Shown here piece by piece: positions 2,329 to 11,400 of a stretch of 11,769 bases of DNA. Under the pieces are notes generated by a model. It was not told where the DNA came from. It saw only the letters and a list, made by a program, of their open reading frames with translations, and did no database searches. The stretch lies in contig RXOD01005976.1 of NCBI GenBank assembly GCA_005223375.1, positions 1-11,769 of the forward strand, given 5' to 3'. This DNA is from Amoebophrya sp. AT5.2 (Eukaryota > Sar > Dinophyceae > Syndiniales > Amoebophryaceae). Positions within the stretch are counted from its first letter, which is position 1. Each line of letters begins with the position of its first letter. The position numbers and the translations under genes were made by a program.

Positions 2329-3790
2329 ATAATCCACCCGATGTTGATGTACCAACCCCACCAGAAGATGAAGATTTTGTATCTTGGGCTCCCAGTGCCT
2401 GTATGTGTCTCTGTGTACGATGTTTCTTTGGCTGATACAACAAAACAAAAACAGGAAGAAGCGCTGGCGCGCAAATACGGCCTGGCGACCAAAGTTGCTG
2501 TCGATTCACGCCTCAAGAAGCTGGGTTCCTCCAATAACTATTACAACGACCCAAAAAGGAAACTCGAAAACTGGGCGGACCCAAAAGAGAGAACAAAAAG
2601 GCGACGAGTAGCGCCAATAGTACCACAATGGCAGTCGAAGCTGTGGCCCCTGAGCGAAGCCACGGCCCTGCGAATCTGGAGTTCCGAGGACTGGCACATT
2701 CGGAACAATCCCGACGGCCTGGGCAGTCGCAACTCAAAATGGAGGGTGTGGATGATGTACTGCAAAACGCACAGGAAAGAGCTCTTCTGGGAGCCAGATA
2801 AGTACGAGCACCCGTCGCAGATCGAATGGCTCAAGAACAGCCACCCGAACGTGTCATGGGCAGACTTGTCGAAGTTCGCGGTAGCATCTTTCTGTTTTAA
2901 TATCATGTATCAGTTCGTTACCGATGACGATGAAAGAGGTAAGCACAAAAACACGGTTACAGATGTGGCTGATCGATTGTGAGTACCAGGCGCCACTGCA
3001 CTACATGAGCCTGGTCGGAGACAGGCTGCGCGAACTCAACCTGCTGGAAAAAGCCAACCCGCATGCACAAAATCTCATGACGAAGGCCTTCGAACGAGTG
3101 AAGAAACTTGTATTCGAGAACTCACCAGTCAAGGCAGTGCCGCCGAACCTCACGAAGGTCTCCACCCTCAGCCCGAGGCACAAGGCGACTTTCGCCTTTT
3201 GGCAGCAGACAGGCCTCCGCCCGGTCTCGCTTGTCGAAGTCAGAGCGGACATGGTGGAGATACAACCGCTATCGCAGTATGCGAAAACTAAGGTAACTGC
3301 ACCCATGAATCTTGTTTATATGATCATTTGTGTCAACTTCCAATTTGCATGTATGCTCTTGCGATCTGACTAGGTCCCCAAGATCAAAGTCGATGCGCTC
3401 CCGGGTGAGATCTTCTCCATCAAGGTCCCGCTGCCAGTCTACAAGAAAGAAATGCTGCCGATCACGAAAAGTGATGTCACGATCATCGCAATGGCACTCG
3501 GAACAACCGGCTACGGCCCGCGTAGAGCGCTCGCGATCTGGGCAAGGCTATACATGTGCGAGCTAGGTATTCACGACTCCAGCACCGATCCCACACAGAA
3601 GAACAGATATCTGAACTACAAGACCACCGTCGATGAGCACCTTGGTTGGGTCGCAGGATCCGATATGTGGACCGCCGAGTACTCGAAGGACGCGTGGCAG
3701 TGGCGCGACACCGCCTTCGCGATCCATCCGTTGACTGCAAACTGGTTCAAAACTGCAGGGGCGAACGCTAAACCCCCAAGTCTGAAGTAG
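2329..3790 (+). CDS. Tyrosine recombinase of the DIRS-like element, spliced, start unresolved
   Basis: This would integrate the circular cDNA by strand exchange through a phosphotyrosine. Coding follows the RNase H stop at once. A frame-0 acidic linker (DVDVPTPPEDEDF, about 2340-2378) leads to an intron near 2401-2461. Frame 1 (LARKYGLATKVAVDSRL...) follows to 2880, then an intron at 2881-2938, then frame 2 to the TAG at 3788-3790, with another intron at 3293-3373. Family motifs: box I TGLRPVSLVEVR (Arg codon 3218), box II YGPRR (Arg codon 3521, Tyr where the family usually has His), HLGW (His codon 3638, Trp codon 3647) and AEYSKD (likely nucleophile Tyr, codon 3680). The protein may be fused to RT by a -1 shift at about 2325 or made separately; ATG 2341 opens frame 1 but lacks the acidic linker. 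The family call is strong, the exon model moderate. Confidence 0.8.
2401..2461 (+). other. Probable intron in the recombinase ORF (ends uncertain)
   Basis: A GTATGT donor at 2401 is followed by a T-rich tract, a CTGAT at 2432-2436 and an ACAG at 2451-2454, a typical spliceosomal layout. Joining the frame-0 linker (PEDEDFVSW) to frame 1 (LARKYGLATK) without a stop needs the AG at 2461, or a donor at 2415 with the AG at 2454. The 2401-2454 pair joins frame 1 to frame 1 instead. An intron is likely; which pair is used is not resolved. Confidence 0.55.
2881..2938 (+). other. Intron, 58 nt, phase 0, in the recombinase ORF
   Basis: GTAGCA at 2881 to GAAAGAG ending at 2938. Removing it joins frame 1 (...WADLSKFA) to frame 2 (VSTKTRLQMWLIDCEYQ), both clearly coding, with no stop. 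The interval is T/A-rich compared with its flanks. Without splicing the recombinase frame is broken. Confidence 0.7.
3293..3373 (+). other. Intron, 81 nt, phase 0, between recombinase boxes I and II
   Basis: AAG|GTAACT at 3293 to CTGACTAG at 3371-3373. The in-frame TAG is the last codon of the interval, and its T-rich composition contrasts with both flanks. Removal joins QYAKTK to VPKIKVDALPG in the same frame and restores box I to box II continuity. AGGT occurs at both boundaries (3291-3294 and 3372-3375), a short direct repeat of the kind seen at recently gained introns. Confidence 0.78.
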
Positions 3791-4284: not shown

Positions 4285-4527
4285 GGCGAGTGTATCTGTA
4301 TCGTCACTTGACGTACGGCTGTACTGTATAGCAGTCGGTTTTCTGTGTAGTGACTGGTATGAACGCTGGAAAAGCATCGGGCCATGTATGTATGACCTAG
4401 TATATGGTTGGTTCGTTGCTCGTGCGGTCGTATCGGTTCCCGCGACCAATTGGTCTCGGGCTCGCATCGGAATAAATGAATGTGACTCGATCAATGAGTC
4501 CGTATGTAGTTCGCGGCTGATATATTT
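4285..4527 (+). repeat. Split direct repeat B1, 243 bp
   Basis: Matches 4780-5022 at 242 of 243 bases; the only difference is G 4498 versus A 4993. The match starts at GGCGAG and ends at GATATATTT. In split-direct-repeat elements B1 lies inside the element next to A2, and the B1/A2 junction reproduces the junction of the circular intermediate. Confidence 0.93.
4439..4460. repeat. 22-nt near-perfect palindrome in B1
   Basis: Centred between 4449 and 4450 with perfect core GACCAATTGGTC; 10 of 11 base pairs match, the mismatch being 4443/4456. It is repeated exactly in B2 at 4934-4955. It could bind a dimer, for example the element's recombinase, or a transcription factor; this is inference. 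Confidence 0.6.
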
Positions 4528-4779
4528 TTTAGGGATAAATATTGCAGCCAAGAACAAAATACGGATCAATTCCCCTCGTCACCGATGCGTTCGTTGTACT
4601 TGAGTAAGGGCTAAGTCTCTCGGTAGTAGTAAGGACGTACCTTATTACTTTTTTTACCCCGCCCACTCCACCCTGTACGTATATCTTCAAGTATGCAGTA
4701 TGTACCCGTACTTGTACTCCACCTGTGAGCCTGAGCTTTCGCAGAGCTGACATTGTAGCCCAGTACGGCCAAACAAGTA
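4528..4779 (+). repeat. Presumed A2 segment of the split direct repeat, 252 bp
   Basis: The unique sequence between the two B copies. By the split-repeat model it should be a copy of A1, the left end of the element, which is not in the window. It is non-coding, with a T-run at 4650-4656 and several GTAC words (4634, 4674, 4701, 4711, 4763). A2 identity is inference from position. Confidence 0.6.
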
Positions 4780-5022
4780 GGCGAGTGTATCTGTATCGTC
4801 ACTTGACGTACGGCTGTACTGTATAGCAGTCGGTTTTCTGTGTAGTGACTGGTATGAACGCTGGAAAAGCATCGGGCCATGTATGTATGACCTAGTATAT
4901 GGTTGGTTCGTTGCTCGTGCGGTCGTATCGGTTCCCGCGACCAATTGGTCTCGGGCTCGCATCGGAATAAATGAATGTGACTCGATCAATGAATCCGTAT
5001 GTAGTTCGCGGCTGATATATTT
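4780..5022 (+). repeat. Split direct repeat B2, right end of the element
   Basis: Second copy of the 243-bp repeat. The match ends at 5022, after which the sequence turns at once into the RAP gene reading frame, so 5022 marks the element/host boundary. Confidence 0.9.
4934..4955. repeat. 22-nt near-perfect palindrome in B2
   Basis: Same palindrome as at 4439-4460, shifted by the 495-base repeat offset, with no base changed. Confidence 0.6.
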
Positions 5023-5026
5023 ATAG

Positions 5027-6605
5027 GAACAGCCTCGACCGGCAAAAATATCTAAAAATCTTCAGCGCCAAGGCGAGGGACGAACTGAAGGGCGGCGAGC
5101 ACGACGGAGGAAGCGAGTTGGCGGTTCTCTCGTCTGCCGGCCTCCTCCAGTCCGCGGACGATTGCCAGCTGGTGGCGGACGTTTTCCGCGAGCAGATCTG
5201 TGGACGGCCGCTCTTCGGCGACTCGAGTCAAAGAAGTGGCAGCAGTAATACAAATACTTCTATCCTGTCGAGGCTGAAGGCCATGTGCGACATTGCGCAC
5301 GTGTTCGCGCAGCACGACGCGGCCTCCCATGCGGTTTTCGGCGCGATCATCCGGCAACTGGAGGAGTTCGCAAGGAGGTCGTGCGCGTCGAGAGGTACTT
5401 CTCATTCCGCGGAGGTTTCATCAACACCGGGGCTGGTCGACGACCTTTCAAAGCTGTTCTACGCGACCACGAAGCTCGGCTACTTCTCCTCGCCACGGCC
5501 CGAATCCGACGGACCCGAGCCCCACCCGCAACTTCCCGAGGACGCGCGAGTACTGCTTTTGACGCTCTTCAGGCAGCAATTTGTTCGGGACAACGCTGTC
5601 GCGGACGCGGATAGCAAAGGCTGCGCAGGCTATCTGGCTGCTGGATCGAACGAGGTGGTTTCCGTAGCGAGTCTCCTCCGGATGTACGTCGCCGCGGCCG
5701 TGCATGGAGCTTTAGCGGGTGGGTTAGACAACCCCAAGCCCAGCAACTCGGTCGCTCTCGCCTGGCAGCTGATGGGGGACTGCGAGGCCGCGATGGGGGG
5801 AAGCGAAAAGCGAGGGATTGCCACCAAGAACGCAGTGTACACGCGCAGCATCGCTTTTGCGCGGGCTTTGAGGATGGCATTTGAAGCAGGACGAGGGGAA
5901 CGAGAAGGACCCGTAGAAGAAGCAATCGGCTCGTCCTCGGCGGACGACGAAGTAGAGGACGACCCGATGCGGCACTTGACGGCGCACGAACGGCCTGTGT
6001 ACCGTGCGCTGAAAAAACTCGCGGCGGACCTGAATCAACGTGCCGCGGCCGCGAATGCGAGTAGCAAGGGCGCAGAAACAAGTGCCTCCTGTAGCGGGTC
6101 CGAACAGTTATACCGATGTTTCGAATTTGACATGGAGGAAAATTATAAAGTCGGAGTTCGTGGTGCGGATGGTCATGCTGGAAGTGCTGTAAAGCGGCCG
6201 CGATGTTGGCGCGTGAAGCAGTTTAAGCTGTACGACGGTGCTTTTTCCGTTCGACTCGCGCTTGAAGTGCGCCACCCCGCCGGGGCACCAGAGACGCAAG
6301 GGCAAGCAAGAGCGCCGTTCACCTGTGTTATAATAGACGCCCTTGGTCCGCGAGACGTGCTTCACGCGGTCGCGTCCAATACGGTTAAGAGGGACAATAA
6401 CACATCGGAGCCGCAGAAGGTGGGTACAGATGTTGTAAAGCCGTTTTCGCGCGCGCGGCAAAACGCGCTGCGGACACTTGGATACGAGCTGGTGGAAATC
6501 AACACCTCTTCCGAAACCACGCCCTGGATCCATGCGCGGAACGACCGAGAGCGCGTAGAACTTATGAAACGTCTCGTTGATCGCATGCGAATAAAAGCGA
6601 AATAA
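5027..6605 (+). CDS. RAP-domain protein, 5' end missing (organelle RNA factor)
   Basis: The frame is open from 5016, three codons inside B2, to TAA 6603-6605. Protein-like sequence starts at about 5028 (NSLDRQKYLKIFSAKARDEL). There is no in-frame ATG before 5283, so the true start lies upstream. A helical region follows (LSRLKAMCDIAHVFAQHDAA; LSKLFYATTKLGYF; VASLLRMYVAAAVHGAL), like the helical repeats before RAP domains. The C-terminus is a RAP domain: CVIIDALGPRDVLHAV (6324-6371) corresponds to the family's 'I-x-D-GP-x-H' strand and RQNALRTLGYELVEI (6456-6500) to its 'L-x-x-x-GY-x-V-x-I'. RAP proteins process or stabilise mitochondrial or plastid RNA. The usual Gly-Pro-His is here LGP-RDV. 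The gene either continues upstream of the element through splicing or is truncated by it. Confidence 0.7.
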
Positions 6606-8238: not shown

Positions 8239-8414
8239 TCCAAAATAACAGTTTCTCCTTCACATTTGATTCTTTACATCTCATCCCCGTCTTGGGGTAA
8301 ATTTGATTCGTTCGACCGCTTTCATCCTCAGCTACTTAATATTGATCGAGAAGTCGAAGTCCAGCAACAGCATTTTTGTACGAGTTAGTTTCTCCTCCGC
8401 TATCATAGAAGTTG

Positions 8415-11400
8415 ATGACGGGGCTCCACACGCTTAGCGCCACGCCGCCGTGCGCTGGTGAGGGCCCGACGTCAGCAGTACAACAGCCGCTGCAGGTTGG
8501 TGCAGCGCAACTGGTTGCGCCTCCCCGCCTCGGCAGTATGATAAACGGGCAAGGCCACGAATCCCATGGAAAACAGGAACAACTACTGACAGAAGACGGG
8601 TCGGAGGCAGTAGAGCAGGAACTCGAAGGTTTACAAGCACTAGTAGACTGCGTAGAAGTAGCGGGAGGGGGAGGTCGTGGCGGGCATGAGCTAGCACCTC
8701 CTTTAGCCGCCCTCAATAATGGCGAAGAGGCCGATACTATCGGTAGCCAAAAGCTGCAGCACGGGCACGTAAACGAAGTAGAAGATACGACGCTGTTGCT
8801 CCAGCTCGATGGTGCATCGCCTCCTTCCGTCAATGCCGACTTTGGCGCGTTCTTGAATGGGGCAGAAATCGACGAGACTGAGGTCGGTCCCCGCAGTTGC
8901 GGCGACCCTTCAGCAGAGCATCACCAACTGCACTCGAAAGTCGTGCCTCCAGTACTATCAGCACCAGTCCAGAACATCGAGGCCATTCAGACGACGACCC
9001 CCAAACACAGGAGGACGACAAGTGCAGTCGGGCTGGACGTTACCACCGTAGTAGGTCCTCCTGCTCCTGGTGGGGATTTCAGTTCGGCGGCTGGGCTGGG
9101 CCCTCAGCTCTCGAGCGGCGAAATCAAAGAGCTGCAACTCGCAGTGCTGCTCGACGACACAGCAGTCGAACTCGAAACTGCCAGCTCCATCGAGGTCGGA
9201 GAGCACGTAGATTATCTCCAACCTCCGACTACATCAGGTCAGCCACCGAAGGAGGACGACATCGAGCGCGATCTGTCGCCGGTGGGGAGCGTCCGCCACG
9301 TCTCAAAAGAGTCCCAGGTGGACCAGCAAAGCGCCGACCTCGCATCTTCCGGCTCCCCCCCAAGTTCTCCCTCGTCGCTAATCGCCCTCGTAGCCGCCGG
9401 AGGGGGGAAAGCTAAGACTCCGACGAGCGCCCCGACTCGGGGCGTCAACATCATGCAGGAACAAGTAGGTGGAGCGACAGGGACGAGCAGCAATACTGCG
9501 GTGGACGGGTCAATCGAGCTGCTGGAGGCTGAGGAGCTGGACGACCCCTACTTTGCGAACGTGCTCGGCCCCAACACGAAGCGGGAGGCGTGGAACGGGG
9601 AGCGACAGCAGCTGTTGGAAACGGGGCTCTCCGCGATGAAATGGAACCAGGTGCCGTCGAGCGGCGTCAGCTTCCGCGCGCCCAATGGCGCACAAGATGA
9701 ACACGTGGAGGAGGAGCTCGAAGAGCTCCCCCAGGGGGGAACATCACCAGCGGGTGCACTAAATGGAACAACCTCAGGAGGCACAACTAGCTCGCATGCG
9801 CACGACTCGGACTCGCTCCCCAAATCCGCTTCTGCCGAAGGAGGTGGGCCTGTGACGAAGTCGTCAGAGCCGAAGAGCGAGCACGAGCAGCTCACGTCTC
9901 TGAGCGCGTTGTTTGTTGCTCGCACCGCCGACTACGAGAGCGCGGCGGGTGTTGATAGTAACGAATGGAAGGACAAGGACAAGGATATTAAAAACTACGA
10001 CCCGGCGTCACCGTCGTCTTCCCCCGGGCCGCAGGTTGCCGTGGAGGATCTGGATCTGCCAGCGCCAGAAACTGCTGCTACCGCCACCCAAGAACTACAG
10101 CAGGAGCTGCTCGACCCCCTGACTCAGGACGAGGATCTCCGAGTCGAGGACCACCTGAAGCGAGACCGTCCCCCCCATGCCGACTCGCCCGCGCACGGTC
10201 CTCGCCCTCCCCGAACCCCGGAGGAGGAACCGGAACCCGCGACAGCTGATGTGGACGAGGAGGAGGATTTCCAGCCGGACGAGGTGCGCGCACAGCGGTC
10301 ACGCTCGGGGCCCTCGGGGCCGTCCGGCGACGAGGACCAGGAGACTCCGGGAGAGGACGACAGCTCAAGTTCGGCATCCTTGACGGACTCAAGTGCCGGG
10401 GACCATTCGAGCGAAGGCGACGACGCCGACGAGGTCATAAACGGAGGCGTGGCGCAGCCGCTGGATAGAGGTGCAGCTCCTATTAAACTTTCTGCTAATG
10501 TCGAATGCTTTCCGTTTCCGTTTTCTGCTATGCACTTAGCCTATCAGTATTTGCATGGCCATGAGTTTTAGTTGGGGTCTTTCTAGCCCGCCTGCAGTTC
10601 TGGATCGATTCGTTTTCTCGTCCCGATGCTGGATAGGTTGATGCGATTCGCAGCGGGTTCTCAATTTCATTTTCCTGCTGTCATGCTGAATGAGAGACCA
10701 AATCCTCCAAAAACTACTATCACAGAGCCGTCAGCGCTGTACAACTTGTACATGCGCGATCCCGTGTACAACCCAGACAATGCCCGGGCACTCGCAGCAA
10801 CGGTACTAAATCCAAGTTTTCGACGACGATCGGAATCGCTATCGCATGAGTTTGTAAAGTAGAAGTACTCGTCGAAGATATGATCGTAAAGAATGAAATC
10901 GAATGAAACGTACCGCAGAAGCAAGTGACGAACGGCGCCGCCCTTCGCGTGCGGTCCGAGGATGGTTACGACCCGCTCACGGGCCAGGACTTTTTGTTTC
11001 CGCTCGGCAAGAACTATCGGACCACGGAGTCCGAGCGGAAGCGGCTCCGCAAGGTAGAGGAGGAGCAGGGCGTCACGCTGGCAGCGTTGCAGGCGTTGGA
11101 GATGAGTCGCCCCGCGCACCAGATGCACACCGGGAGCTCCATGACGATGAAGACGATGGAAGAGCTGTTGAACTACGGCGTCCAGTACTGGCACTGGTTC
11201 ACGGAAAAGCACCAGGCCGCCAGCCCCAACTACAGTCCGCAGCGCGACCATGTTGGGGCGACCAGTGGGAAGGGGGGAAATAATTCCCTACCCGGCGGGG
11301 GAAATACAAATAACCGGGGCGAGGAAGGAGCTCCTCCCCAGACACCGGGACCCGGACATGTTGGGGGTGCAGCAGCAGCTTCGTCGATGGCTTCGAGACA

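Follow-up and report, generated by a model that had tools for sequence, protein, structure and literature searches.

The window, that is, the whole stretch of 11,769 nucleotides of Amoebophrya sp. AT5.2 DNA that was analysed (contig C2180), has its left edge inside a retrotransposon, the parts of which all lie on the forward strand. The gene for reverse transcriptase and RNase H (pol) occupies positions 96-2328, with the start ATGCCGGTC at 96 and the stop codon at 2326-2328. Spliced protein-to-DNA alignment gave no intron in this gene and a single frame shift within RNase H (near 1917-1929); the copy is otherwise young, and the shift may be real decay or an assembly error. The pol product matched Pfam RVT_1 with 27.2 bits (E 3.8e-6), under the Pfam cut-off of 29.6. 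It is followed by a tyrosine recombinase gene (YR), which the spliced alignment resolved into the coding segments a (2455-2880, aligned from 2464), b (2963-3292) and c (3374-3790), preceded by a 3' splice site ACAG at 2451-2454 and separated by intron A (2881-2962, 82 nt, site Y160, GTAGCA..TTACAG) and intron B (3293-3373, 81 nt, site Y270, GTAACT..GACTAG), both in phase 0. Segment b contains the motif TGLR (3209) and segment c the motif GYGPRR (3509), which we take to be box I and box II of the recombinase, respectively; segment c also holds the candidate catalytic tyrosine (3680) and the stop codon (3788-3790). Repeat comparison placed the direct repeats B1 and B2 at 4285-4527 and 4780-5022, the latter forming the right end of the element, with segment A2 between them at 4528-4779. 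The B1/B2 identity of 242/243 given in an earlier, sequence-only reading of this DNA was reproduced.

The junction between B1 and A2 (4513-4550), inspected by eye, is an imperfect inverted repeat, GGCTGATATATTT ... AAATATTGCAGCC, around a short spacer; the corresponding junctions of the related contigs C451 and C45 are likewise imperfect inverted repeats and resemble a recombinase core site. To the right of the element there are open frames at 5016-6605, starting within the end of B2, and at 8409-10571 together with 10907 onward, which are possibly host genes; the frames 5016-6605 and 8409-10571 had no match in Pfam. A scan of the window against Rfam at gathering scores gave no match, and no relative of the element was found in the viral contigs searched.

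The element is a retrotransposon with reverse transcriptase/RNase H and a tyrosine recombinase, and is Ngaro-like by its layout. Ngaro elements are described as carrying B1-A2-B2 repeats downstream of YR (PMC4157794), and complete repeats of this kind follow YR in the window and in C451, C45 and C13. The distance from the pol stop to the first aligned YR residue is 1-421 nt in the 42 elements compared below, so that space for a methyltransferase domain after pol is absent. Pfam found no methylase in the pol and YR pieces of the window, in the EukProt protein P0001 or in five upstream frames, a silence that is weak evidence on its own because Pfam misses YR too. Reverse transcriptase/RNase H thus precedes YR without a methyltransferase domain, as in Ngaro; a DIRS1-like or PAT assignment, which calls for such a domain in pol, was rejected, subject to the same limit of Pfam sensitivity. 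The same scans gave no match to the GIY-YIG family. The split direct repeats of Ngaro also include an A1 copy at the left end. A search upstream of B1, over 12.8 kb in C45, 13.4 kb in C13 and 11.6 kb in C451, did not find one; either the left ends of these elements are unusual or the elements are very long.

The fold of a modelled relative and the catalytic residues R, (H/Y)xxR and Y point to a tyrosine recombinase. A fold search with the model of this relative's YR (mean pLDDT 56, the C-terminal part being better) gave Cre, XerH and lambda Int as top matches, with a best E of 1.1e-3 and none at or below 1e-3. TGLR is present in all 6 rows covering that stretch, and (H/Y)GxRR and the tyrosine in 7/7 rows; box II of the window has Tyr where His is expected. 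Pfam did not detect YR, and a sequence search of the PDB gave chance matches to adhesin only.

Relatives were collected by a pol search of the 50.7 Mb genome, in which 67 of 100 candidates were scored and at least 77 matching pieces were found on at least 50 contigs. Of the 50 contigs listed, 42 were analysed, the window included; C169 (a partial match) and seven contigs matching at 24-32% identity were left out. Introns were mapped with an aligner written for the study, which fits a protein onto DNA and allows introns with GT, GC or GA donors at rising cost and with AG acceptors only, so that every acceptor is AG by construction; the YR queries were the recombinases of relatives without YR introns.

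The sequence-only reading had placed two introns and a likely third in the YR gene. The interval 3293-3373 was returned exactly, with the same length, phase 0 and splice ends, by all three relative proteins used as query, and it does separate box I from box II as proposed. For the interval given as 2881-2938 (58 nt) the donor stood and the acceptor had to be moved to 2962 (TTACAG|ATG): two of three queries yielded 2881-2962, the third fitting 2853-2943 instead, and an acceptor at 2938 was rejected because the 8 residues it would add have no counterpart in the intronless query. At the same place C675 has GT..CTACAG|ATGTGG and C451 has GC..ACACAG|GTATGG, both putting the acceptor directly before the Met or Val codon of (M/V)WL. 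In the interval near 2401-2461 an acceptor at 2454 agrees with CAG|GA at the matching place in C675 and C451, which have no ATG ahead of the YR frame, and the donor found no support; the GT..AG stretch 2401-2454 is 54 nt long, in frame and stop-free, the shortest curated intron measuring 73 nt. On this alignment evidence the window YR gene contains two spliceosomal introns, 2881-2962 and 3293-3373. If the RNA stays unspliced, the frame of segment a meets a stop at 2980 and that of segment b one at 3371, both short of box II and of the candidate catalytic tyrosine, which supports the conclusion that unspliced RNA of the window copy would be unable to encode the catalytic half of the recombinase. 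Intron A searched against the genome matched only itself; for this intron an introner origin, for which many near-identical genome copies would be looked for, is unsupported. Used as a DNA query against the genome, 1301 bases of the window brought up one relative at 66-77% and no near copy.

Across the 42 elements, 49 raw intron calls were reduced to 43. The calls dropped were pol intervals of C223, C478, C439 and C162, where none of at least 60 nt was agreed by two queries, one of 30 nt in C801, and Y270 of C675, the acceptor of which lacks AG. YR introns of at least 60 nt were found in 19/42 elements; the remaining 23, aligned to near the YR end, gave none with any query, so a chance origin of the calls is unlikely. 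At least one pol or YR intron is present in 32/42 elements (22 YR and 21 pol introns, a lower bound, since several carrier loci break off short of the YR end), and ten are intronless in the pol and YR stretches examined, so that introns are not needed for spread. The 43 introns have a median length of 97 nt (range 73-408), with 38 GT and 5 GC donors, and the preceding exon ends in G in 37 cases. GTACT occurs in 16/43 donors, and the general donor tendency, GTACTT, resembles that of host actin, GTACTACT; four introns in two host actin genes measure 179-426 nt and have the donors GTACTA or GTTTGA. By their splice ends the element introns appear to be of host type. All except four of the 43 break the frame or contain a stop; the exceptions are in-frame, stop-free pol introns in C2236 (99 nt), C1878 (117 nt), C324 (96 nt) and C1313 (117 nt), for which unspliced read-through is possible.

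Fourteen of the 42 elements have a shift or a stop within the aligned part of pol or YR, among them C45 (a YR shift) and C675, where the stop arises from fitting the Y270 site. By eye, Y270 of C675 has a normal donor and the acceptor GG in place of AG, and this copy is possibly dying. With the best query, pol is free of shifts and stops in 32/42 elements and has a frame shift in nine. By eye, the conserved MPxL start of pol in C347, C13, C45, C1823 and C2141 follows a hydrophobic, leader-like peptide that has an ATG of its own.

Seven EukProt protein records (P0001, P0002, P0003, P0007, P0008, P0009 and P0012) share long stretches with the elements of this genome. The junctions of P0009 at Y194 of C347 and of P0003 at P204 and Y149 of C2453 are exactly as mapped. 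In P0007 (C13) and P0006 (related to C347 and C1030) the residues that follow Y194 are attached to a different point upstream, and in P0002 (C1010) those that follow P204 are entered from another place. The EukProt gene models may be ab initio, and these last three records join elsewhere.

A further splice acceptor recurs at the start of YR. In a group of 17 rows within the larger clade, AG stands directly before the first conserved YR codon in 16, and in 16 an in-frame ATG is absent after the last upstream stop, C96 having one 12 codons upstream; the seventeenth row for the acceptor, C835, is misplaced by the rule and reads CTTCAG|GTA by eye. The other 14 rows of the clade have an in-frame Met codon at or near the YR start, lie 269-421 nt from the pol stop to the first aligned YR residue, and show AG in one case (16/17 versus 1/14, Fisher p 9e-7, the groups having been formed after looking). 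CAG|GA is seen by eye at the corresponding place in C675, C451, C135 and C1313, so that the acceptor is found in at least 20 of 23 rows lacking a start codon there. No universal donor for it was seen by eye near the 3' end of pol, and no single pol codon offers a phase-0 donor ([GA]|GT[AG]) in all 17 rows, the best being 13/17 versus 6/14 of the rows with their own ATG. Since YR here combines an acceptor with the lack of a start codon, the recombinase message of many lineages seems, from these sequence features, to be reached through splicing from an upstream exon. Trans-splicing of a spliced leader onto the YR start was considered and rejected by reasoning, as a leader without ATG supplies no start codon; a leader tail of at least 10 bases on the coding strand was absent from the scanned element stretches. 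What we take to be the dinoflagellate spliced-leader 21-mer occurs 18 times in the genome, its reversed control not at all, in keeping with a host that is probably a dinoflagellate-type alveolate. Among four of these 18 sites that were read, L074, L076 and L077 have no GT donor and look like relics of retrocopied mRNAs, and L075, where the leader is followed by GTACCG, looks like a leader gene.

The alignment of other genomic copies, which the sequence-only reading had proposed as a check, showed that relatives carry introns at the same sites. The relatives closest to the window, at 59-60% protein identity, have its two sites as well: Y160 is shared by C675 and C451, and Y270 by C451, C675 having the donor only and being scored as a carrier by eye. 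A tree of 42 pol proteins was computed with IQ-TREE, and intron sites were scored on it as changes and compared with 2000 label shuffles. Y160 and Y270 require one change each, as do Y172 (four rows), Y194 (four), Y149 (five), Y252 (two) and the pol site P114 (three); one change was matched in 0-2 of 2000 shuffles, and in 40 for the two-carrier Y252. No shared YR intron position extends beyond a single clade of this tree. The pol site P204, present in 13 of 20 rows of one clade, takes four changes (shuffled mean 11.3, matched in 0/2000 shuffles); the seven rows without it form three separate groups with branch supports of 100/99, 98/94 and 94/92, and in all seven the protein is unbroken across the site. 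Its history, as read from the tree, fits one gain and three precise losses, parallel gain being less likely; shared intron sites in general could partly be parallel gains.

B1/B2 repeats, compared wherever the sequence analysed extended far enough to include them, are near-identical in further intron carriers: 258/258 in C451, 225/225 in C45, 287/288 in C13 and 43/43 in the cut-off repeat of C1313. Elements intronless in pol and YR are equally young (C801, 99.6% over 251 columns; C253, 129/131, and C478, 81/82, both cut off). Some carriers are therefore recent; an intron does not mark an element as dead, and an element can do without one. Among 13 intron pairs, three were more alike than all 30 shuffles, with flanking exons 65-85% identical, so that introns appear to evolve fast between fixed ends. 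Shared sites and phases, restriction of positions to single clades and the youth of carriers together indicate that the introns travel with the elements, as the earlier reading had supposed in arguing against gain after insertion. Its premise that an element copied through RNA should lose introns is half right: at P204 an intron appears to have been lost precisely three times, which would be expected if spliced RNA is copied now and then.

Because introns have been kept at fixed places over a long history, the copied RNA was probably left unspliced. We consider it probable, on the sequence comparisons described, that introns are kept because unspliced RNA is copied and spliced RNA makes the recombinase. 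The RNA that is reverse transcribed would usually be unspliced; full-length recombinase, and reverse transcriptase too in most of the families that have pol introns, would come from spliced RNA only; and occasional copying of spliced RNA would remove an intron precisely. Most speculatively, the split between spliced and unspliced RNA might act as a control between genome and message, the switch imagined in the sequence-only reading. The main rival, which we regard as unlikely, is that reverse transcription uses antisense RNA as its template, where splice sites would go unrecognised. This has been proposed for Penelope-like elements, an unspliced sense template being left possible there (Arkhipova 2013, PMC3846280), and it would explain retention without any sorting of RNA; the three probable precise losses at P204, however, require that spliced sense RNA is copied sometimes. 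Spread mainly as DNA, for instance as circles moved by the recombinase, so that introns never meet splicing before copying, appears improbable: the elements do have a recombinase, those with an intron site in common are deeply diverged and the search with 1301 bases gave no near copy, but a pol without shift or stop in 32/42 elements implies use of the reverse transcriptase, near-identical B1/B2 repeats fit a cycle of replication, and cDNA is suggested by the precise losses.

Independent gain of introns by each copy at preferred sites, through intron-making transposons or reverse splicing, is hardly plausible. Intron-making transposons have been reported in dinoflagellates (PMC11453091, PMC7789003), exon ends are G in most cases and intron sequences differ between copies; against this stand the identical site and phase across whole clades, the lack of any other genome match to intron A, the three intron pairs that exceeded all shuffles and the fact that young copies already bear introns. 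That the copy is dead and the intervals reflect decay or misassembly, a reading to which the RNase H frame shift and the contig edge within the element might lend some colour, can practically be set aside: it is already contradicted by the relatives, in which intervals at these sites, flanked by open frames and ending like splice sites, occur on independent contigs. Copia-type reverse transcriptase in the same genome gave 25 matches (13 above the family cut-off), 24 of them without stops and with open frames of 700-3827 aa, so that host and assembly do not break every retroelement, introns outside those frames being possible. Copying of unspliced RNA with expression from spliced RNA is the preferred reading. 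Its stronger form, that an old YR lineage makes recombinase only from spliced RNA, by way of internal introns and the 3' splice site at the YR start, and copies unspliced RNA, is put forward tentatively, as a proposition about as easily doubted as believed. If true, an element's ability to integrate would hang on host splicing, and intron loss in the family would be driven by the proportion of spliced to unspliced templates. The family appears to hold an internal record of both retention and precise loss, and the question of which RNA is copied becomes directly testable here.

Copying through RNA is usually recognised by the loss of introns. In retroviruses and LTR elements such as Cer1, unspliced RNA serves as genome and spliced RNA as message, and BARE reportedly also has a spliced RNA. 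Splicing in retroviruses and LTR elements mainly reaches another gene, whereas in the present elements small introns lie within the coding sequence of the enzyme, and acceptors stand at the YR start as well. With Ngaro-type YR retrotransposons the window lineage shares reverse transcriptase/RNase H followed by the recombinase, B1-A2-B2 downstream of YR and no methyltransferase match in the scanned pieces; it differs from them in having YR and pol introns and may differ in its left end, the A1 copy not having been found in 11.6-13.4 kb upstream of B1 in three copies. The Symbiodinium DIRS elements with Dnmt3 are likewise dinoflagellate recombinase retrotransposons, with repeats arranged A - coding - B-A-B, but are described as carrying a cytosine methyltransferase in pol, the DNMT genes being annotated as intronless (PMC5890265). 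Within the literature searched, no report of introns inside YR retrotransposons was found among the matches listed, and the main texts of two surveys (PMC3266345, PMC3783388) contain no word beginning with intron. Penelope-like elements are described as keeping spliceosomal introns through transposition by RNA copying (PMC3846280), as proposed here, and have a GIY-YIG endonuclease in place of the tyrosine recombinase of the window lineage. The present elements thus appear to constitute a second intron-keeping class with a different integration enzyme, represented by many families in one genome and by dated copies.
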